Positions 786 through 11,725 of a stretch of 64,000 bases of DNA are shown piece by piece. Under the pieces are notes generated by a model, which worked only from the letters and a program-made list of their open reading frames with translations, was not told the DNA's origin and did no database searches. Positions within the stretch are counted from its first letter, which is position 1. Each line of letters starts with the position of its first letter. The stretch comes from Cellulosimicrobium terreum (GTDB lineage Bacteria > Actinomycetota > Actinomycetes > Actinomycetales > Cellulomonadaceae), in assembly GCA_014803435.1 (NCBI GenBank), contig JACYFD010000006.1:62001-126000 (forward strand), in the 5' to 3' direction. The position numbers and the translations under genes are program-made.

Positions 786-3700
786 ATGCGGGTACAGAGC
801 GTCGTACGGACGTCGATCGATCGAGCACAGCCACCCGGCGCGAGAGCGCCGCGACGCGCCGTCGGTGCGGCGGTCGCCGCGCTCACGATCGTCGGCTTGA
901 CCGTCCCCGGGCTGGCCACCTCGGCGACGGCGGCCCCCTCCGACCCGGCAGCGACGGAGTCCGACGCCGCCGCTGCCGCCGTCGAGGGCCCGCTGGTCGA
1001 CTACGTGAACCCGTTCATCGGCACCAAGGACGACGGGAACACGTACCCGGGCGCAGCCGTGCCGTTCGGCATGGTCCAGCTCTCACCCGACAACGGGCAC
1101 AACGTCGGCTACGACTACGACCGCACGGCCGTGCGCGGCTTCTCGCTCGTGCACCTCTCCGGCGTCGGCTGCGGCCTCGGCGGCCCGCTCCCCGTCCTGC
1201 CGACGACCGGTGACATCACGTCGACCGACTACGCGCAGTACGAGCTCGGGTTCTCGCACGACGACGAGGACGCCTCGCCCGGCTACTACCGCGTCGGTCT
1301 CCAGGGCGACGACGGCACGATCGACGCCGAGCTCACCGCGACCGAGCACGCCGGTGTCCAGCGCTACACGTTCCCCGAGACCGAGCAGGCCAACGTCCTG
1401 CTCAACGCCGGCCAGGCGCTCAACCGGGTCACCGGATCGACCGTCCACGTCGTCGACGACCACACGGTCGAGACCGAGATCACCGTGCGCGGGTTCTGTC
1501 AGGACACCGAGCCGCAGACCATCTGGACCCGTACGACGTTCGACCGCCCCTTCACCGCCCACGGCACGTGGGACGGTGACACCGTCACCGCGGGGTCCGA
1601 CGAGTCGACCGGCGGCGAGGGTCGTCGCGGCGCGTACGTCACGTTCGACACCACGGGCGGCGACCTCGACGTCGAGGCCGTCACCGCGATGAGCTACGTC
1701 GGCCCCGACGGTGCCGCGGCGAACCTCGCCGCGGAGACGGGCACGTTCGACGACCTGCACGACGCCGCGCGCGGGGCCTGGGAGGAGCGCCTCGGCCTCG
1801 TCCAGGTGGCCGACGGAGCCGAGGACGACCTGCGGACGTTCTACTCCTCGCTCTACCGCAGCTTCCTCGCGCCGAACGTCGGCTCGGACGTCGACGGGCG
1901 CTACCGCGGCTGGGACCAGGAGGTCCACACCGCTGGCGTCGAGGGCGAGCCGGGCACGTACTACCAGAACTACTCGCTGTGGGACACCTACCGGACGCAG
2001 CAGCAGCTGCTGTACCTGCTGGCTCCGCAGGAGTCCGCGGACATGGCGCTGTCGCTCGTGCGGCAGGGCGAGCAGAACGGCTGGCTCCCCCGTTGGGGCT
2101 ACGGCACGGTCGAGACGAACATCATGACCGGTGACCCGGGCACGGTGTTCCTCGTCAGCGCCTGGAAGCAGGGGCTGCTGGCCGGTCACGAGGACGAGGC
2201 GTACGCGGTCCTGCAGCAGAACGCCGATGGGGTGCCGCCGGCCGACTCGCCGGACAACGGGCGGGCGGGCAACGTCGAGTACATCCGCGACGGGTTCGTC
2301 CCGCACGAGCCGTCGCGTCGCGGAGACCCGGGCGACTACGACCTGCAGCACGGCGGAGGCGCGACCATGGAGTACGCGCTGTCCGACGCGATGCTCTCGA
2401 CGATGGCCCGTGGTCTCGGCCACGACGAGGACGCGGACCGCTACGCGGCACGCGGCCAGAGCTTCCGCAACGTGTTCGACCCGCGCACCGGCAACTTCCG
2501 GGCCCGCAACGCCGACGGGTTCTTCGTGGGAGACCCCGACCCGGCGCAGTCCGACGGGTTCCACGAGGGCACGGCCGTGCAGTACCAGTGGCTCGCGCCG
2601 CAGGACTTCCCGGGCCTGTTCGACCTCATGGGCGGGGTGGAGGCCGCGGACGACCGTCTGGACGACTTCTTCGCCTACGACCAGCTCCTCGAGGACCCGG
2701 CGCACGTCGCGAGCGAGGTCTGGGTCAACGGCACGTACGACTACTACGGCTGGAAGACCTACAACCCGAACAACGAGCCGAACCTGCACGCGCCGTACAC
2801 GTACCTGTGGACGGGGCAGCCGTGGAAGACGACGGACGTCGTGCGCGCTGCGTCGACGCTCTTCACCGACGGCCCTGACGGCGTGACCGGCAACGACGAC
2901 CTCGGCACCATGTCGGCGTGGCACGTCCTGTCCTCGCTCGGGGTGTACCCGATCGTCCCGGGTACCGACATGTGGGGTCTGACGACGCCGCTGTTCGACG
3001 ACGTGACGATCACGCTCGACCCGGACGTCTTCGGCACCGACACGCTGCACGTCACCGCGGACGGCGTCTCCTCCGACACGCACTACACGCAGTCGGTCTC
3101 GCTCGGTGGCGACGACCTCGACCGCGCGTGGGTCACCGGTGACGAGCTCACCTCGGCCGGCACGCTCGACGTGACCGTCGGCTCCGAGCCGTCCGACTGG
3201 GCCACCGACCCGGCCGCGTCCCCGGGCGCTGTCGTGCCCGCGGACGGGACCGCGGAGCGCCTGTTCGTGGGTGCCTCGCCGCGCCAGCCGGTCGTCGCAC
3301 CGGGTGGCGAGACGCAGATGTCGGTCCAGGTCGTCGCCCAGGGCGAGGGCACCAAGGAGGGCACGCTCGAGGTGTCGTCCGACGACGCCGTCCAGGCCAC
3401 CACGGACCTCGCGGACTGGACCGCGGTGTCCGACGGCCTCCCGGCGACGGTCGAGGGCACGATCACGCTCGCCGCACCTGCGGACGCCGAGCCGGGTCTG
3501 CACACCGTGCAGCTCGTCGTGCGTGACGACGCCGGGATCGAGACCACCCGTGAGGTGAAGGTCGTGGTCTCGGGCGAGTCGTGGATCGCGGAGACGTTCG
3601 ACAACGTCGGCATCGGCGACGAGGGCGTGGGCAACGCGGACCTCGACGGCCTCGGCTACTACCTGCTGCGCGGAGCGCTCGCGGACGCGGGTGCCGTGCA

Positions 3701-4430
3701 GGGCCTGGAGCTCACCGTGCCCGGGACGGACCTGACCTACACCCTCGGCGCTCCCGCCGCGGGCGAGCCGGACAACACCCTGGCGAACGGCCAGGTCCTG
3801 GAGGTCCCCGAGGAGCTGCGCTCCGCGCGTCACGTCTCGGTGGTGGGGACCGCCACGAACGGCACCCACGGCGGCGACCTGGTGCTCGGGTACGCGGACG
3901 GCACGACGTCCACGGCCTCCGCGCGCCTGAGCGACTGGTGCACCGGCTCCCCGGAGAAGGACAACATCCTCGTCGCCAAGGCGGGCGCACGCGGTGACGG
4001 CACGGGCACCCAGAACATCGGGTGCGGCCTCTACGCCACGTCGCCGATCGCGATCCCCGAGGGCAAGGCACTCACGTCGATCACGCTGCCCAGGGACAAG
4101 CAGCTGCACGTGTTCGCGATCGCGACCGACGCGACGGGTGCGGAGCCTGCGCCGCAGGTCGAGGTGACCGCGCAGGCGCGCTGCCTGGCCGGCAAGGCCT
4201 TCGTGGCCGTGCGGGCGACGAACACGGGCGAGGAGACCGCCGCCATCGACCTGGCCACGGCCTACGGTGCCAGGTCGTTCGCGCAGGTCGAGCCGGGCAA
4301 GAGCGCCTACCAGTCGTTCGCCGCGCGGGCGACGGAGGTCGCGGCGGGCGAGGTGACCGTCACGGTGACCGCAGACGGGGCCGAGCCCCAGCAGGTCACG
4401 GCCGCCTACGACGGGGCGAGCTGCTCCTGA
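786..4430 (+). CDS. Secreted GH92 alpha-mannosidase with NEW3-like and shared C-terminal modules
   Basis: Family GH92 enzymes are calcium-dependent inverting exo-alpha-mannosidases. This 1214-residue protein has an Arg-rich signal peptide (cleavage near residue 50, ATSATAA), then the GH92 domain from about residue 70 (NPFIGT, GNTYPGA, PFG) to about 800. The expected catalytic acid Glu664 (NNEPNLHAPY) and the base region GNDDLGTMSAW with Asp704/Asp705 are present, so it should be active as an ordinary mannosidase. About 832-930 resembles the NEW3 domain of bacterial glycosidases. About 932-1120 looks like a beta-sandwich I cannot name. Residues 1125-1214 form a module shared with the next two genes, with Cys1133 and Cys1213. 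The ATG at 786 has an AAGGAG site eight bases upstream. It is likely exported and acts on alpha-mannan or N-glycan; linkage preference cannot be read from sequence. Confidence 0.93.
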   Translation: MRVQSVVRTSIDRAQPPGARAPRRAVGAAVAALTIVGLTVPGLATSATAAPSDPAATESDAAAAAVEGPLVDYVNPFIGTKDDGNTYPGAAVPFGMVQLSPDNGHNVGYDYDRTAVRGFSLVHLSGVGCGLGGPLPVLPTTGDITSTDYAQYELGFSHDDEDASPGYYRVGLQGDDGTIDAELTATEHAGVQRYTFPETEQANVLLNAGQALNRVTGSTVHVVDDHTVETEITVRGFCQDTEPQTIWTRTTFDRPFTAHGTWDGDTVTAGSDESTGGEGRRGAYVTFDTTGGDLDVEAVTAMSYVGPDGAAANLAAETGTFDDLHDAARGAWEERLGLVQVADGAEDDLRTFYSSLYRSFLAPNVGSDVDGRYRGWDQEVHTAGVEGEPGTYYQNYSLWDTYRTQQQLLYLLAPQESADMALSLVRQGEQNGWLPRWGYGTVETNIMTGDPGTVFLVSAWKQGLLAGHEDEAYAVLQQNADGVPPADSPDNGRAGNVEYIRDGFVPHEPSRRGDPGDYDLQHGGGATMEYALSDAMLSTMARGLGHDEDADRYAARGQSFRNVFDPRTGNFRARNADGFFVGDPDPAQSDGFHEGTAVQYQWLAPQDFPGLFDLMGGVEAADDRLDDFFAYDQLLEDPAHVASEVWVNGTYDYYGWKTYNPNNEPNLHAPYTYLWTGQPWKTTDVVRAASTLFTDGPDGVTGNDDLGTMSAWHVLSSLGVYPIVPGTDMWGLTTPLFDDVTITLDPDVFGTDTLHVTADGVSSDTHYTQSVSLGGDDLDRAWVTGDELTSAGTLDVTVGSEPSDWATDPAASPGAVVPADGTAERLFVGASPRQPVVAPGGETQMSVQVVAQGEGTKEGTLEVSSDDAVQATTDLADWTAVSDGLPATVEGTITLAAPADAEPGLHTVQLVVRDDAGIETTREVKVVVSGESWIAETFDNVGIGDEGVGNADLDGLGYYLLRGALADAGAVQGLELTVPGTDLTYTLGAPAAGEPDNTLANGQVLEVPEELRSARHVSVVGTATNGTHGGDLVLGYADGTTSTASARLSDWCTGSPEKDNILVAKAGARGDGTGTQNIGCGLYATSPIAIPEGKALTSITLPRDKQLHVFAIATDATGAEPAPQVEVTAQARCLAGKAFVAVRATNTGEETAAIDLATAYGARSFAQVEPGKSAYQSFAARATEVAAGEVTVTVTADGAEPQQVTAAYDGASCS

Positions 4431-4592: not shown

Positions 4593-7500
4593 ATGAACCA
4601 CATCTCTACCGGGACCCGACGCCTGCGTGGCGGCGGGCTCGTCGCCGGGACCCTCGCGGCCGCGCTCGCGGTCGTCGGGCTCGCGCCTGCGGCCTCAGCG
4701 GCGCCCGAGGCGCCGACGACCACGGCCGAGGACCAGGACCTCGCCTCTCTCGTCGACGTGTTCGTCGGCACGGAGGGCGACTTCGGCAACGACATGCCGG
4801 CCGCGCAGGCGCCGAACGGCCTGGCGAAGGTCAACCCGCGCACGATGCCTGGACGCAACAACACCGGCTACGACTACGCGCAGCCGCAGATCTCGGGGTT
4901 CACGCACACGAACCTCGACGCGGTCGGCGGGTCCGGTGCCGGTGGTGACATCCTGGTCGTCCCCACGTCGGGCTCCTACACCGCGCGCCCGGACACGAGC
5001 ACGTACGCGCACACGTTCTCCCACGACGACGAGGACGCCGGCCCGGGCTACTACTCCGTCGGGCTGGGCAACATCGCGGGCACCGACGGGGCGATCAAGG
5101 CCGCGAGCGGCACGATCGACGCCGAGGTGGCGGCGACGACGCGCTCGGGCGTGCACCGGTACGACTTCCCCGACGGTTCGACGCCGAGCCTGGTCCTCGA
5201 CCTGTCGACGAACAACACGAGCCGCATCGCGTCGTCTCTCGACGTCTCGACGCTCCAGGACGGCCGCACCGCGATCAGCGGGAGCTTCACCGGCCACTTC
5301 TACAACGCCGACTACCAGATGTACTACTACGCGACGACGACGCAGCCCGTCGCCCGGGTCCAGACCTGGGGCGACGACAAGGCGCTGACCGACGCGAGCG
5401 CCCAGGACGGCACGGACACCGGCGCGATCCTCACGTTCGACGCGGACGATGCGGACGACGTCGGGCTCGAGGTGACGATCTCCCCGGTGAGCGCCGCGCA
5501 GGCGAAGGTCGACCAGGCGAACGAGCTCGGCGACCTCGGGTTCGACGAGGTCCGGGACCGCACGCGTGCCGAGTGGAACGCGCAGCTCGGCAAGGTCGAG
5601 GTCTCGGCCTCGGTCGCGACCGACCCGACGGGTGACCTGAAGAAGCTCTTCTACACGCACCTGTACCGGATGTTCGCGATGCCGATGAACGCCACGAGCA
5701 CCTCGGGCACGTACCGGGGTGTCGACGGCGTCGTCCACCGCGCACAGGGCTTCACGTACTACGACTCGTGGACCACGTGGGACGACTTCCGCAAGTTCTC
5801 GGTCATCGCGTACATCGATCCCGAGACGTACCGCGACATGGTGCAGTCCCTGATCTACCTGTACGCGGACGCGGAGGCCGAGGGCTCCGGCAGCGGTATC
5901 GGCAAGCTCCTGCACACCGTCCCGACGGTGCGGTGGGAGCGGTCGTCCGTGGTGATCGCCGACGCGCTCGGCAAGGGCTACACCGGCTTCGACCGCCTCG
6001 ACGAGGCGTACCCGGCACTCCAGCGCCTCGTGGGCGGGTACAGCGACGCGGACCGCGAGCGCGGCTACATCCCCGGGAACCCGGGATCCTCGGTCCAGCT
6101 GGGCTACGACCAGTGGGGCCTGTCGCTCGTCGCCGACGAGCTGGGCCTCACGGACGACGCGCAGGAGCTGCGTGAGCAGGCCGCACTGCCGATCGAGAAC
6201 CTCATCAAGCCCGGCGCGTGGACGGCCGGCGACGGCACCGAGGTCGGCGTGCTCATGCCGCGAGCGGCGGACGGCTCCTGGCAGAGCGCGAACCTCGAGA
6301 AGTTCGAGACCGCGGGCCTCTACCAGGGCACGCTGTGGCAGTACAACTGGTACGACGCCTACGACATGGCCGGCCTGATGGACGCGATGGGCGGCACCGA
6401 GGCGGCACGCCTCGCGATGCGGCACATGTTCGGCGAGGACTCGGCCGTCGACGACGGCTCGAGGATGCTGCACTCGAACGCGAACGAGATCGACCTCCAG
6501 GCCCCGTACCTCTTCAACTACGTGGGTGAGCCCGCGCTGACGCAGAAGTGGACGCGCGCGATCTACACGAAGGAGACCTGGAACCGGTACATCGGCACCG
6601 GCTCCACGAGCTTCTTCCCGAGCGGCGGCGGCGAGTTCACGCCGCCGATCAGGACGAAGGTCTACCAGCTCGACCCGCGGGGCATGCTCGCGACGATGGA
6701 CAACGACGCGGGCACCATGTCCACGATGTTCGTCGGCGCGGCGATCGGCCTGTTCCCCGTGACAGCAGGCTCGGACGAGTACCAGATCGGCTCGCCGATC
6801 TTCGACACGGCGACCATCCGCCACGACGACGGCACGGCGTTCCGCGTGACCGCGCAGGGCGTGTCGGAGGACGCCTTCTACATCCAGTCGGCCACGCTCG
6901 ACGGCGCCGACCTCGACAACACCTTCGTCGACTACGCCACGGTCGTGGGCGACGGCGACCTCACGTTCGCCATGGGCGAGGAGCCCAGCGACTGGGGCAC
7001 CGACACCGAGCCCGCCTACTCGGCGAGCACGGCAGCCGAGGGCCCGGACTCCGACGCCTACCCGGTGTCCGCGGACCCGGCCACGGTGCAGGCCGCCGCG
7101 GACGGCGACGTCGACGCCTCCGTGACCCTCACCCTCGGTGGCGGCGCGGCCCTCGCGGCCGAGCCTGGCACCGAGCTCGTCGAGGAGGGCGACGCGAGCG
7201 TCGAGGGCCTTCCGGCGGGCGTGGACGCGACCGTCACCGTCGTGTCCCCGACGACGCTCACCGTCGCCCTCGCCGGCACGGCTGCCGAGGAGGCCCGCTT
7301 CCACGTCCGCCTCGGCGACGCGGCCCTCGCGGACGGTGTCGCCGCGAAGGCGCTGAGCGGCCAGGGCGTCTCGCTGCGCTCGCCCCTGCGGCTGTCGGTC
7401 GCCGGTGCCGAGCGCGCCGACCTCGCCGACCTCGTGAAGGACGCCGCCGCCGTGCGCAAGGGGAACTACTCCTCGGTGTCGTTCGCGCGTCTGACGGCCG

Positions 7501-9476
7501 CGCTCGACCGTGCGCAGGACCTGCTCGCGGACGACGCGTCGTCGAGCGTCGACCTGCGGTTCGCCACGGACCGCCTGTCGGCCGCGATCGACAGGCTCGA
7601 CATCACCGGTGGCGGATACCGGGTCCTGGAGGGCGAGAGGTCCGAGGGCTGGTCCGGCGGCGAGCTGTCGAACGAGGCGAACAGCTCGTCCGGCAACCTG
7701 GGCGGTGTGCGGTCGGGGTCGTGGATCCAGTACCAGGACATGACGTTCGACGGCGACGCCCTCCCCGGGTACGTGACGGTGGACTACGCGACGAGCTTCG
7801 GGTCCGGTGAGGAGCCGAGCACCGTCGTCGTGCACGCTGGCGACGTCGACGGTCCGGTCGTCGCGACCGTCGACCTGCCCGGCACGGGTGGCTGGGGGAA
7901 CTACCAGGAGGTCACGACCGAGCTGGACGACGCGCAGGCGCTGGCCGACGCGGGCGCGGTGACGTTCGAGTTCCTCGCCCCGGACGGTCGGAGCTGGGTC
8001 GGCAACTTCGACCTGTTCCGCTTCAGCGAGGACGACCCGGCGCAGAACCCGGACCCGGGCGCCTCTGCCGCGGTCACGGTCGAGTCGGAGGACTGGACCG
8101 AGAACTCCGGTGGCGGGCTCAAGAAGGAGTCGTCCACGTGGTCGAGCGGCCCGGTCACCAACGTCGGCGGCACCGCGGACGGCGACTGGCTCGCCTACGG
8201 GCAGGTCGACCTCGGTGACCTTCCGCTCGGTGAGCTGTCCGTGCACTACGTGCACAACTCCGGCCGGTGCGGGACGGACTCGGCGCTCGAGGTCTACCTC
8301 GACGAGTTCGACCCGGAGAACCCGGGCGAGCCGTTCGCCCGCGTGCCGCTCGCGACGACCGGCTCGAGCTGGACGACGGACGGTACCGCGACCGTCGCCC
8401 TGCCCGAGACCGTCTCGGGGACGCACGAGGTGTTCGTCCGTCTGATGACCACGCCGGACGCCGCGCACCCGTACGTCGCCAACCTCGACAGCATGACGTT
8501 CGCACCGGGCGGGCCCACCGACGTCCTCGTCGAGTCGGAGGACTGGACCGAGAACTCCGGTGGCGGGCTCAAGAACGAGAGCTCCACGTGGTCGAGCGGC
8601 CCGGTCACCAACGTCGGTGGCACCGCCGACGGCGACTGGCTCGCGTACGGGGAGATCGACCTCGGGTCGGCGGCGCTCGACCAGCTGTCGGTGCACTACG
8701 TGCACAACTCCGGTCGCTCCGGCAACGCCTCGGCGCTCTCGGTGTACCTCGACGAGTTCGATCCCCAGAACCCGGGCGAGCCGTTCGCCACGGTGCCGTT
8801 GCCCACGACGGGCTCGAGCTGGACGACCGACGGCGTCGCGACGATCGACCTGCCCAGCCCGGTGCGCGGCTCCCACGAGGTGTTCGTGCGCCTGTCGACG
8901 CAGGCGTACGCGAACCACCCGTACGTCGCGAACCTCGACAGCATGACCTTCTTCACCGACGCCTACGACGTGGAGGTCCCGGAGACGGACACCGCCGCGC
9001 TGGCGGCGGCGGTCGCCGACGTCGAACACCTCGAGGGCGAGGGCGATCGGTACGGTCGCATCGACTTCGGCGTGTTCGTGCGGGAGCTCGACGCGGCGCG
9101 CGCGCTGCTGGAGGCGGGCGACGCCACCCAGGAGCAGGTCGACGACCAGGCGCGTCGTCTGGCGCTCGCGGCCGGGCAGCTCGTGCCGGTCGAGGAGGAA
9201 GTGGAGCTGGTCTCCGTCGAGGTCAGCGCGCGCTGCCTCGCCGGCAAGCCCTACGTCGGCATCCGGGCGACGAACGTCTCGGACGGGCCGGTGGCGATCG
9301 AGCTGTCGAGCGAGCTGGGCTCGCGGTCGTACGAGGCCGTGAAGGCTGGCGCGAACGCGTACCAGTCGTTCGCAGCGCGCTCGGTCACCGGTGACATCGA
9401 GGTCACCGTGACCGCGGCAGGAGCCGACGGGGAGCAGACGGTCGAGCAGACCGTCACGGTTCCCCGCTGCTCCTGA
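4593..9476 (+). CDS. Secreted multimodular GH92 alpha-mannosidase with carbohydrate-binding repeats
   Basis: A 1627-residue secreted relative of the preceding gene. Signal peptide to about residue 36 (AASA). GH92 domain about 50-820, with the acid Glu632 in NANEIDLQAPY and the base pair Asp703/Asp705 in MDNDAGTMS. The motif after the acid differs from the NEP form of the first enzyme, so it belongs to a different branch of the family. Then follow a FIVAR-like helical segment (about 943-1005), a CBM6/35-like beta-sandwich (about 1006-1148), two near-identical 150-residue CBM6-like repeats (from 1163 and from 1313), a second FIVAR-like segment (about 1466-1532) and the shared two-Cys C-terminal module (about 1540-1627, Cys1548 and Cys1626). 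It probably binds a polymeric mannan and trims alpha-mannose from it outside the cell. It lies 162 bases after the first GH92 gene on the same strand. GH92 phosphomannosidases are reported with Gln at the acid position; this protein keeps Glu. Confidence 0.92.
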   Translation: MNHISTGTRRLRGGGLVAGTLAAALAVVGLAPAASAAPEAPTTTAEDQDLASLVDVFVGTEGDFGNDMPAAQAPNGLAKVNPRTMPGRNNTGYDYAQPQISGFTHTNLDAVGGSGAGGDILVVPTSGSYTARPDTSTYAHTFSHDDEDAGPGYYSVGLGNIAGTDGAIKAASGTIDAEVAATTRSGVHRYDFPDGSTPSLVLDLSTNNTSRIASSLDVSTLQDGRTAISGSFTGHFYNADYQMYYYATTTQPVARVQTWGDDKALTDASAQDGTDTGAILTFDADDADDVGLEVTISPVSAAQAKVDQANELGDLGFDEVRDRTRAEWNAQLGKVEVSASVATDPTGDLKKLFYTHLYRMFAMPMNATSTSGTYRGVDGVVHRAQGFTYYDSWTTWDDFRKFSVIAYIDPETYRDMVQSLIYLYADAEAEGSGSGIGKLLHTVPTVRWERSSVVIADALGKGYTGFDRLDEAYPALQRLVGGYSDADRERGYIPGNPGSSVQLGYDQWGLSLVADELGLTDDAQELREQAALPIENLIKPGAWTAGDGTEVGVLMPRAADGSWQSANLEKFETAGLYQGTLWQYNWYDAYDMAGLMDAMGGTEAARLAMRHMFGEDSAVDDGSRMLHSNANEIDLQAPYLFNYVGEPALTQKWTRAIYTKETWNRYIGTGSTSFFPSGGGEFTPPIRTKVYQLDPRGMLATMDNDAGTMSTMFVGAAIGLFPVTAGSDEYQIGSPIFDTATIRHDDGTAFRVTAQGVSEDAFYIQSATLDGADLDNTFVDYATVVGDGDLTFAMGEEPSDWGTDTEPAYSASTAAEGPDSDAYPVSADPATVQAAADGDVDASVTLTLGGGAALAAEPGTELVEEGDASVEGLPAGVDATVTVVSPTTLTVALAGTAAEEARFHVRLGDAALADGVAAKALSGQGVSLRSPLRLSVAGAERADLADLVKDAAAVRKGNYSSVSFARLTAALDRAQDLLADDASSSVDLRFATDRLSAAIDRLDITGGGYRVLEGERSEGWSGGELSNEANSSSGNLGGVRSGSWIQYQDMTFDGDALPGYVTVDYATSFGSGEEPSTVVVHAGDVDGPVVATVDLPGTGGWGNYQEVTTELDDAQALADAGAVTFEFLAPDGRSWVGNFDLFRFSEDDPAQNPDPGASAAVTVESEDWTENSGGGLKKESSTWSSGPVTNVGGTADGDWLAYGQVDLGDLPLGELSVHYVHNSGRCGTDSALEVYLDEFDPENPGEPFARVPLATTGSSWTTDGTATVALPETVSGTHEVFVRLMTTPDAAHPYVANLDSMTFAPGGPTDVLVESEDWTENSGGGLKNESSTWSSGPVTNVGGTADGDWLAYGEIDLGSAALDQLSVHYVHNSGRSGNASALSVYLDEFDPQNPGEPFATVPLPTTGSSWTTDGVATIDLPSPVRGSHEVFVRLSTQAYANHPYVANLDSMTFFTDAYDVEVPETDTAALAAAVADVEHLEGEGDRYGRIDFGVFVRELDAARALLEAGDATQEQVDDQARRLALAAGQLVPVEEEVELVSVEVSARCLAGKPYVGIRATNVSDGPVAIELSSELGSRSYEAVKAGANAYQSFAARSVTGDIEVTVTAAGADGEQTVEQTVTVPRCS
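8079..8965 (+). repeat. Tandem 450-bp in-frame repeat encoding two CBM6-like modules
   Basis: The segment starting GTCGAGTCGGAGGACTGGAC at 8079 recurs at 8529, exactly 450 bases (150 codons) later. The first ~60 codons are almost identical at DNA level, including synonymous positions, while the later parts have drifted. This indicates a fairly recent internal duplication or ongoing homogenisation of a carbohydrate-binding module within the second GH92 gene. Confidence 0.9.
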
Positions 9477-9480
9477 CCTG

Positions 9481-9534
9481 ACGGGCCCGCCTCACGGCGG
9501 CGTCGTTCGCGACGCCGCCGTGGCGCGGGCCCGT
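9481..9534 (+). terminator. Long two-part stem-loop with TTCG tetraloop after the second GH92 gene
   Basis: Outer arms ACGGGCCCGC (9481-9490) and GCGGGCCCGT (9525-9534) enclose a CT/GC internal loop and an inner 13-bp perfect stem (9493-9505 with 9510-9522) closed by a TTCG tetraloop. It starts five bases after the stop codon. No T-tract follows. Terminator or mRNA-processing element separating mannosidase from phosphatase. Confidence 0.65.
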
Positions 9535-9583
9535 CGAACGTCACGACAGGTAGGAACACGCACGACGACTCGAAGGGGACGAC

Positions 9584-11725
9584 ATGACAGGGACGACGAT
9601 GTTCCGAGGGCGCGGCGACGCTGCCGCGCCGATCGACCGGCGGAGGCCGGTCGTCGCGACGCTCGCCGCGCTCACCACGCTCGCGCTCCTCCTCGTGGGA
9701 GCGCTGCAGGCGCCCGGTGCACGCGCGGACGAGGGGTTCACCCCGACCGCAGTGGTCGGCACGGACACCACCTGGCGCTACCTCGACGACAACACCGACC
9801 CTGCGGCAGGTCTGAGCGACCGCACCGCCTGGACCGACCCGGGCTTCGACGACGCGGCCTGGAACACCGGGACCCCGGGCTTCGGCGCGGTCAACGGCAC
9901 GGCGTCGGGCATCGGCGGCGGCAACACCATCGAGACGCTGCTGGGCTACTGGATCACGCAGGCACCCAAGAAGGTCGTGCCGGCGTACTTCTTCCGCACC
10001 ACGGTCACACTCGACGCGGCGGCGCTCGACGGGGCCACCGGCCTCGCCGGGACGCTCGTGTACGACGACGCGGCGACGGTCTACGTCAACGGCGAGCGGG
10101 TCTCCGGGTGGGGCGACTCGATGATCACGCGGAACCTGCAGTACCAGGACAGGGCGGGGGCGACCGCGCCGTTGCGCACGGCCGTCATGATCCCGGCGGG
10201 GCTGCTGGTCGCGGGCGAGAACACGATCGCCGTCGAGATCCACCAGTGCAACGAGACCAGCTCGGACGTCTTCTTCGCGCTCGACCTCGCGACGACCGAC
10301 AACCCGTCGATGCCCTTCCCGTCCGACGTCCTCGACCGCGAGTACGCGTCCGACTCCACGCCTGACGCCCCGGGCGGCGGCGACTGGTTCACGTGGATGC
10401 TGCGCGGGTTCGACGACCTGCGGGAGAACCACCCCGAGGTCTTGTCGCCCAACGAGCCGGGCGAGCCGACGAGCGCGAACGACCTCGGCTCGCTCGCGCG
10501 CAACAACGCCTACTCGGCAGGTGACGCCCAGGTGCGGCGCGCCCTGACGGACGGCGCCGGCTCGCCGTACGTGACGATGGCGGACGGGCTCGGCAGCCAG
10601 CTCGGGCCGATCTACCGCACCGCGCTGGACGCCGGCGAGCTGCCCAAGACGAAGGCCCTGCTCGCGGGGCGCGTCGAGGAGTCCGTGGGCAACCACGAGC
10701 CCGCGAAGGCGGCCTACAGCTACAAGCGTCCGTTCGTCCGGCTCGGCTTCACGGCCGACGGCGGTCACGTCAATCCGTTCGACTCGTCCGGAAGCTACGA
10801 GGGCCTGCGGAACAACGGCTCCTTCCCGAGCGGGCACACCAACCACGGCTACTCGCAGGGGACCGTCCTCGCGACGCTCCTGCCCGAGCTCGGCCCGCAG
10901 ATCCTCGCCCGCGCGTCCGAGTACGGCGACAACCGCCTCGTCCTCGGGTTCCACTACCCGCTCGACGTCATGGGCGGCCGTATGACCGGGCAGAACATCG
11001 CGCAGCTGCGCTGGTCCGACCCCGAGTTCCGCGACCTCCTCGAGCAGGCGCGCGCCGAGCTCGTCAGGGTCCTCGAGGACGGGTGCGGCGACGTCCTCGC
11101 GGCCTGCGTGGCCGGACAGGAGCAGTACCTGCCGACCGACGAGGCGCTCGACGTGTACGCCGGTCGCATGACGTACGGCTTCCCGCTCGTCGGGGACACC
11201 GGGCGCGAGGTCGAGGTGCCCGACGGCGCCGAGGACCTCCTGCGCACGACCTTCCCCGACCTCACCGGCGACCAGCGTCGCCTCGTCCTCGCCTCGACGT
11301 CGATCGACTCGGGCTACGCGCTCGACGTCGAGGGCCCGGGGGAGTGGCAGCGGATCGACCTCGCCGCGGCGATGGCCGCAGACGTCAGCGTGAACGACGA
11401 CGGCACGCTCACCGTGGACGGCGAGGTCGTGGGCGATCCCACGACCCCCACCGACCCGCTGGTCGAGGTCCAGGCCTCCGGTCGGTGCCTCGCCGGCGAA
11501 CCGTACGTCGCGGTCCGCGCGCTCAACGTGTCGGACGGCGCGGTGCGCGTGGTGCTCGACACGGGCGCCGGGTCGCGCACGTTCGACGCCGTCGCGGCGG
11601 GCGCGAGCGCGTACCAGTCGTTCAAGGTGCGCGACGTCGCGGGCGACGTGCCCGTGTCCGTGACCGCCGACGCCGGGCAGGAGACACGGACGCAGACGCA
11701 GGAGGTGGCCGTACCGGTCTGCTGA
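9584..11725 (+). CDS. Secreted PAP2/vanadium-haloperoxidase-fold phosphatase with sugar-binding-like N-domain
   Basis: A 713-residue exported protein. The signal peptide ends near residue 48 (GARA). About 49-240 resembles a galactose-binding-like beta-sandwich (WRYLDDNTDP start). The middle holds the three PAP2 phosphatase motifs in order: KX6RP at Lys375-Arg382-Pro383, PSGHT with His418, and RX5HX3D as Arg451, His457 and Asp461. These residues bind phosphate and form the phosphohistidine intermediate in this family, so phosphatase activity is well supported; the substrate is not. Residues about 627-713 are the same two-Cys module found at the end of both upstream GH92 proteins (Cys635 and Cys713, here without the final Ser). 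The start ATG at 9584 has a GAAGGGGACGAC site. Context suggests removal of phosphate from mannose-6-phosphate groups of phosphomannan, or general phosphate scavenging. Confidence 0.88.
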   Translation: MTGTTMFRGRGDAAAPIDRRRPVVATLAALTTLALLLVGALQAPGARADEGFTPTAVVGTDTTWRYLDDNTDPAAGLSDRTAWTDPGFDDAAWNTGTPGFGAVNGTASGIGGGNTIETLLGYWITQAPKKVVPAYFFRTTVTLDAAALDGATGLAGTLVYDDAATVYVNGERVSGWGDSMITRNLQYQDRAGATAPLRTAVMIPAGLLVAGENTIAVEIHQCNETSSDVFFALDLATTDNPSMPFPSDVLDREYASDSTPDAPGGGDWFTWMLRGFDDLRENHPEVLSPNEPGEPTSANDLGSLARNNAYSAGDAQVRRALTDGAGSPYVTMADGLGSQLGPIYRTALDAGELPKTKALLAGRVEESVGNHEPAKAAYSYKRPFVRLGFTADGGHVNPFDSSGSYEGLRNNGSFPSGHTNHGYSQGTVLATLLPELGPQILARASEYGDNRLVLGFHYPLDVMGGRMTGQNIAQLRWSDPEFRDLLEQARAELVRVLEDGCGDVLAACVAGQEQYLPTDEALDVYAGRMTYGFPLVGDTGREVEVPDGAEDLLRTTFPDLTGDQRRLVLASTSIDSGYALDVEGPGEWQRIDLAAAMAADVSVNDDGTLTVDGEVVGDPTTPTDPLVEVQASGRCLAGEPYVAVRALNVSDGAVRVVLDTGAGSRTFDAVAAGASAYQSFKVRDVAGDVPVSVTADAGQETRTQTQEVAVPVC

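Follow-up and report, generated by a model that had tools for sequence, protein, structure and literature searches.

Fifty-two proteins encoded by a single Cellulosimicrobium terreum genome end in the same module of about 90 residues, with the pattern RC(L/M)AGKxYVAVRATN ... GxRxF ... PGxxAYQSFxxR ... G ... YxAxxC(G/S). These host proteins have no substrate in common and share the trait of export. We consider it somewhat probable that the module serves throughout the genus as a C-terminal docking (localisation) tag with a putative partner. One unnamed domain marks a large set of exported enzymes in a biotechnologically used genus, and its definition is missing from current annotation.

A C-terminal module on exported proteins of many kinds

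The window analysed here is a stretch of 64,000 nucleotides (contig C11:62001-126000) of the 4.49-Mb genome. Within it the module is confined to three adjacent plus-strand genes with exported products, namely two GH92 mannosidases (P1 and P2) and one PAP2-type phosphatase (P3). The P1 protein (1214 aa; 786..4430, plus strand) comprises a signal peptide, GH92 N-terminal and catalytic domains (Pfam PF17678 at residues 73-302; PF07971 at residues 309-799, E 3e-135), further beta-rich domains and the terminal module, and its nearest solved structures are GH92 mannosidases. Its module (4158..4427, plus strand; residues 1125-1214) has its first conserved Cys codon at 4182..4184 and its final one at 4422-4424, and extends one residue past the last Cys. 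The P2 protein (1627 aa; 4593..9476, plus strand) carries a signal peptide, GH92, three CBM6 domains and a module at 9210..9473 (plus strand; E 2.8e-15 against that of P1). It is an orthologue or close homologue of CcMan5 (PDB 2XSG/4AQ0, E 0), in an alignment that spans P2 residues 38-816 only, the crystal constructs lacking the tail. The P3 protein (713 aa; 9584..11725, plus strand) combines a signal peptide with a PAP2/PhoC-type acid phosphatase (PAP2 3.7e-11; APhasePhoC 2.5e-14, under that model's cut-off) and a module at 11462..11722 (plus strand; E 5.6e-11 against that of P1), the second Cys of which is the last residue. RC is encoded from 4179, 9231 and 11483 onwards, respectively. A fourth module is located 1.5 kb past the window end, on the minus strand at G000:C11:127563.

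An earlier note on this DNA had placed the module at the ends of three proteins, from about 4158, 9209 and 11462, with one Cys at the RC start and another at the end. The starts are 4158, 9210 and 11462, and both cysteines are found in all three proteins. Its description of the catalytic parts as unrelated holds for P3, a PAP2 phosphatase, but not for P1 and P2, both of which are GH92, and its three-protein feature turns out to have 52 carriers in the same genome. As a separate observation, CcMan5, to which P2 is close, acts on yeast glycans by taking the capping mannose off mannose-6-phosphate; P2 and the next gene, P3 (window 4593-11725), could act as a pair that uncaps and then dephosphorylates phosphomannan.

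Copies were counted by a whole-genome search with the P1 module as query, followed by a profile search. The query matched 51 places at E <1e-7, plus weaker ones; those besides P1-P3 number 48, with E-values from 7e-23 to 8e-8, and the similarity among modules is far above chance. The profile identified the 52 proteins. A stop codon follows the module end by 0-4 residues in every one of them, the extreme C-terminus is Cys or Cys plus one residue in 50, and the first-Cys column is conserved in >90% of these paralogues. Two hosts contain an additional internal copy that scores weakly (L043_495_5288, residues 885-959, E 6e-8; L032_343_5007, residues 1101-1163, E 8e-5). The first of these (G000:C1:190494-195287) resembles a fusion of two tagged-type enzymes, in the order GSDH-PKD-CBM6, weak internal module copy, sugar-isomerase-like barrel and terminal tag.

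A signal peptide is recognisable on nearly all of the 52 hosts, with none seen in the reading frames inspected for L034 and L066. According to Pfam, the glycosidases among them belong to GH2, 3, 5, 13 (pullulanase), 26, 43, 81, 92, 95, 97 and 127, and further carbohydrate-active hosts include alpha-L-arabinofuranosidase, ThuA/GSDH and 3-keto-disaccharide hydrolase. Subtilase, M28 peptidase, GDSL lipase and alpha/beta hydrolase represent the protease and lipase types, and the remaining hosts comprise asparaginase, GDPD, calcineurin-like and purple acid phosphatase, and 5'-nucleotidase/nuclease. Binding of mannan or arabinan was rejected as a general role, since proteins, nucleotides, phosphate esters, lipids and asparagine are also among the substrates of the hosts. 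The mannan binding put forward in the earlier note lacks support as a general function because proteases, asparaginase, phosphatases, 5'-nucleotidase, lipase and pullulanase are among the hosts; surface retention (its cell-wall binding), secretion and sorting, which it had also listed, stay plausible.

Predicted fold, cysteine pair and known families

The fold was modelled with AlphaFold2 on the 52-row alignment, using P1 residues 1120-1214. The model has a mean pLDDT of 96.2 and seven strands (6-15, 18-27, 33-39, 42-49, 54-60, 69-77 and 83-89), from which the module is confidently predicted to be a seven-strand, two-sheet Ig-like sandwich. Structure comparison retrieved generic Ig-like sandwiches at Z 8-10 (maximum 10.4) over 83-95 residues, including transglutaminase C-terminal domains, a late domain of T. 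pyogenes lacto-N-biosidase (9FYN) and GH2 sandwiches, with no close relative and no match to a particular functional family. The module thus resembles generic bacterial Ig-like domains (NEW3/NPCBM_assoc, the transglutaminase C-terminal type and the 9FYN domain) in fold, but is not matched to them by sequence. To our knowledge, such domains do not carry an end-cysteine pair together with RCxAG and AYQSF motifs.

The two cysteines are kept or lost together. Among 277 full-length non-identical copies from many genomes, both are present in 258, neither in 16 and one in 3, and one of the latter (L088) is a counting-window artefact, its sequence ending ...VPACG. The Fisher value for co-occurrence is 3e-23, which overstates the significance because the copies are related. 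The Cys-less copies are spread over several genera and hosts. A twin-arginine (Tat) motif is present in four of the eight Cys-less hosts taken as having readable N-termini (L053, RRRFL; L305, SRRGFL; L306, TRRHFL; L309, SRRSLL), and in the window's own genome a convincing RRxFL motif is found in one host only, the GH127 protein L053, which is Cys-less. Tat substrates fold in the cytoplasm, where a disulfide would not form, so Cys-less copies are expected on such hosts. The association supports, short of proof, an extracytoplasmic disulfide, which is predicted to join Cys14 and Cys94 and close the ends of the module. The disulfide that the earlier note had thought possible gains support from the same counts, joint loss in 16/277 against single loss in 3/277.

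Scanned against Pfam and NCBIfam, the 52 copies gave scattered sub-threshold matches only, and a sequence-profile search of the PDB returned significant scores to designed Ig domains only, with no natural match. Identity with a named family was dropped because these searches give no meaningful match, in line with the earlier note, which had not recognised it as a named family; no carbohydrate-binding or sorting family emerged from them. We found no description of the module in the literature available without subscription.

These searches bear on a reading that we regard as rather doubtful, in which the module is a cell-wall or glycan-binding domain, i.e., a CBM for the bacterium's own wall or capsule polymer or for a common substrate, and keeps the enzymes at the surface. 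It would amount to a particular form of docking, to a sugar polymer instead of a protein partner. No known CBM profile matches the module, the sole hits among the 52 copies, at E 0.02-0.03, being CBM_35 in two and CBM_6 in one. The hosts often already possess CBM6, CBM11, CBM35 or F5/8C modules, and CBMs are seldom so strictly terminal. The reading nevertheless draws support from two conserved tyrosines (20 and 56) on one presumed exposed face, and genomes with a single copy would need no special partner protein.

The terminal sandwich also invites comparison with the type IX secretion C-terminal domain (TIGR04183/PF18962) of Bacteroidota, which is likewise a terminal beta-sandwich of about 80-100 residues, present dozens of times per genome on unrelated exported hosts. 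In Bacteroidota that domain is cut off by a PorU-like enzyme at the outer membrane and the protein is joined to the envelope. The strictly C-terminal place, the dozens of copies per genome, the Ig-like fold, the genus dialect described below and the existence of three sortases would suit a processed sorting signal, with a dedicated transpeptidase or protease that reads the tag once it has folded, cuts it off and attaches the enzyme to the envelope. We rate this as very improbable. The module differs from the type IX domain in having no sequence match to it and in bearing the end Cys pair, and its host is a monoderm (Cellulosimicrobium has no outer membrane). The Por secretion tail family is absent from the Pfam and NCBIfam matches of the 52 members at E<=0.1. 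All 52 proteins end in the sandwich and lack an LPXTG-like motif, a hydrophobic stretch or membrane helix, and a basic C-terminal tail. Moreover, no transpeptidase candidate lies beside the clustered copies in nine regions of four genomes, as judged from crude gene calls without profile annotation.

Exchange of the C-terminal slot and concerted change between genera

The best named relatives of the module are nearly all from Cellulosimicrobium. It was detected in 77 of 150 genomes of the family, representing 15 of 25 genera, which refutes confinement to the window's genome. Each of the 16 other genomes of the genus has at least 26-34 matches, with 34 candidates scored per genome, one g11 genome and some g23 genomes have at least 30, and many others have 1-5; fuller counts are 36 (G011), 32 (G023) and 19 (G044). 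The tag-rich genera are g1 (Cellulosimicrobium), g23 and g11. In a phylum-wide sample of 396 genomes, only five others bear the module, and these belong to a single additional family within the order; Nonomuraea jiangxiensis (L113) is an outlier carrier. The nine regions mentioned above contain recurrent regulator-like and transporter-like genes, by homology. The many genomes with 1-5 copies and the lack of dedicated machinery adjoining the clusters inspected in other genera suggest that a copy may work alone, a point against docking. In the other family of the same order, modules are clustered on neighbouring enzymes (L217-L222; G417, G465 and G406), and G417 has about ten copies within 60 kb, together with recurrent regulator-like and transporter-like genes. 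The gene content of these clusters suggests spread with arabinan-type utilisation loci, the arabinan substrate being a guess that rests on homology with the GH43/GH51/GH127 cluster in the window's own genome.

The module is terminal in 271 of the 277 full-length copies. The six exceptions are the artefact L088, two near-terminal copies (L193 and L275) followed by only ~25 residues, the last of them rich in Trp/Phe, and three truly internal ones (L189, L199 and L310), of which L189 lies before CBM5/12 and L310 is a multi-copy protein with an anti-sigma-like N-terminus. Copies that precede other domains (L189, L199 and L310), like the weak internal copies in two hosts of the window's own genome, speak against docking. 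L310 itself (G023:C8:85900-91600) is a 1539-codon frame in which an anti-sigma-like zinc-finger N-terminus and a hydrophobic segment are followed by three divergent module copies and a CBM5/12-like end; the protein may be a surface sensor that uses this domain as its building block.

Pullulanase orthologues illustrate what occupies the terminal slot in different lineages. At 79-90% identity, the tag is present in 8/8 Cellulosimicrobium, 6/6 g23 and 1/1 g11 genomes, and the protein stops before the tag slot in all 15 genomes of the low-copy genera g21, g3, g7 and g14. Remoter pullulanases have other ends, with motifs judged by eye: a sortase-type LxxTG-TM-Arg signal in g19, g20 and g8 (L286, L288, L289, L291, L292, L294 and L296), CBM5/12-like repeats in g24 (L303), and a Trp-rich end in g16 and g6 (L293, L295, L299 and L301). 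Nucleotidase orthologues similarly have either the tag or CBM5/12-like ends. Elsewhere, the slot is occupied by anchors, retention domains or nothing, and by this alternation the tag behaves like a detachable localisation element. The mobile two-cysteine C-terminal domain proposed in the earlier note is supported. Short stretches rich in Trp/Phe (e.g., WWDRVTDWWSDLFRR, FWGQVVTFLTTIFARWF) repeatedly form the extreme C-terminus of exported enzymes in other genera, both on the pullulanases L293, L295, L299 and L301 and after the tag in L193, L275, L343 and L349; they may be another undescribed C-terminal attachment element.

The occupants of the slot relate the tag to known retention elements while also setting it apart from them. 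WxL, LysM and CBM5/12 are non-covalent retention elements, and CBM5/12 fills the same slot in orthologous nucleotidases, but their folds and motifs differ from those of the tag and no profile matches. Sortase (LPXTG) signals take the same C-terminal place in pullulanase orthologues of related genera, whereas the tag has none of their elements. CBM5/12-like domains on nucleotidases and sortase-type anchors on pullulanases in this slot also count in favour of the glycan-binding reading.

The tags of g11, g23 and g24 carry genus-typical residues. Between g23 and the window's genome, 18 one-to-one hosts have a median identity of 71% in the host part and 48% in the tag. The counterpart's tag ranked first for 5/18 and within the first three for 9/18 (median rank 3 of 52). 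A label-swap within the 18 g1/g23 pairs gave p 0.0003 for the summed information, with weaker results for g11 (8 pairs, p 0.02) and g24 (4 pairs, p 0.11). From g1 to g23, the leading columns, each at p<=0.001, change from L/M to V/T (15), Y to S/A/H/Q (56), Y/F to T/Q (20), A to S (22), T to V (26), R to Q/K (13) and N to S (54). By strand alternation in the model, positions 20/22/24/26 and 54/56/58 probably lie on one exposed face and positions 21/23/25 and 55/57/59 inside the sandwich. One common partner, or contact between tags, would explain the joint change of many tags; tag swapping between genes could also contribute.

Exchange and concerted change weigh on a further possibility, that the module is a plain structural cap, an Ig-like end domain that protects secreted multidomain proteins from proteolysis without a specific partner. 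The Ig-like fold, the end-closing Cys pair and the presence across all enzyme classes would fit a cap, but the same pullulanase does without the tag in 15/15 low-copy-genus orthologues, the slot alternates with localisation elements, and conserved, presumably exposed positions shift in concert by genus. We therefore think a cap unlikely, even though the particle-bound enzyme considered below is far more stable than its truncated form, a point in favour of a cap.

A putative docking partner and the extracellular particle of C. cellulans F16

As a docking tag, the module would end exported enzymes of many kinds and fold outside the cytoplasm as an Ig-like sandwich with a disulfide between its ends. 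A single partner, shared by every tagged protein, would bind the exposed face of the module (positions 20/22/24/26 and 54/56/58) non-covalently. Enzymes that would otherwise be free would in this way stay gathered at the cell envelope and/or in the large extracellular enzyme particle shed by Cellulosimicrobium. We infer the existence and nature of this putative partner, as well as the link with the particle; our searches found no partner, receptor or dedicated machinery for the tag. A docking tag would explain how these bacteria keep enzymes on or near the cell, and the module offers a fusion tag of ~90 residues for tests of enzyme display or assembly.

The particle is the 17.9-MDa, 20-65-nm extracellular complex of C. 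cellulans F16, which contains 27 proteins including glucanases, xylanases, mannanases, peptidases and laccases (Dou et al., 2015; PMC4562250). No dockerin or cohesin was found in the F16 genome, and the assembly was left unexplained (PMC4562250). Docking by the tag may answer how 27 subunits assemble without dockerin-cohesin, the question left open by Dou et al. (PMC4562250). The key subunit M768_06655, with the Pfam order ThuA-GSDH-PKD-CBM6-PKD, is full length in the complex (~200 kDa on gel), and its free and protease-released forms, at 118.3-118.5 kDa, are missing ~500 residues from the C-terminus; in the particle the enzyme is far more stable than after truncation (PMC4562250). The tagged protein L035, likened to M768_06655 by the published domain order and mass of that subunit, shares this order of domains and weighs ~174 kDa when mature. 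A fragment of 118.4 kDa would stop 524 residues short of the L035 C-terminus, directly behind the second PKD. A cut at this point would remove two concanavalin-like domains plus the tag, which fits a C-terminal part that holds the enzyme in the particle. The cut in M768_06655 does not single out the tag, as two other domains are lost with it.

As a possibility of rather low probability, the tag may be the missing assembly module of the Cellulosimicrobium 'hemicellulosome', in which tagged enzymes gather by their C-terminal sandwiches into particles of ~18 MDa without dockerin-cohesin, the sandwiches either contacting each other or sitting on one scaffold. If true, bacteria would possess two kinds of multi-enzyme assembly with independent evolutionary origins. 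The F16 particle could instead be a membrane vesicle with bound enzymes. Of the free C. cellulans glucanases reviewed in PMC1458353, by contrast, two end in CBM13.

The proposed assembly is similar to the dockerin/cohesin cellulosome in that a small terminal module would gather many hydrolases into one particle. Dockerins differ in consisting of calcium-binding EF-hand repeats, compared with the predicted beta-sandwich of the module, and PF00404, the duplicated calcium-binding loop of dockerins, matches none of the 52 tags. The window's genome has a single cohesin and a single dockerin-like stretch, encoded by neighbouring minus-strand genes (G000:C10:150844-151859; L362 and L363), both without the tag; none was reported for strain F16. 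The cohesin gene is a 275-codon frame with a signal peptide, one cohesin (PF00963, 50.8 bits) and an LASTG-membrane-RRR sortase-type signal. Its neighbour codes for an amidase-like protein in which a dockerin-like double loop scores 20.7 bits with PF00404, slightly below the cut-off. The cohesin was dropped as a candidate partner of the tag, as this lone gene has its own dockerin-like neighbour.
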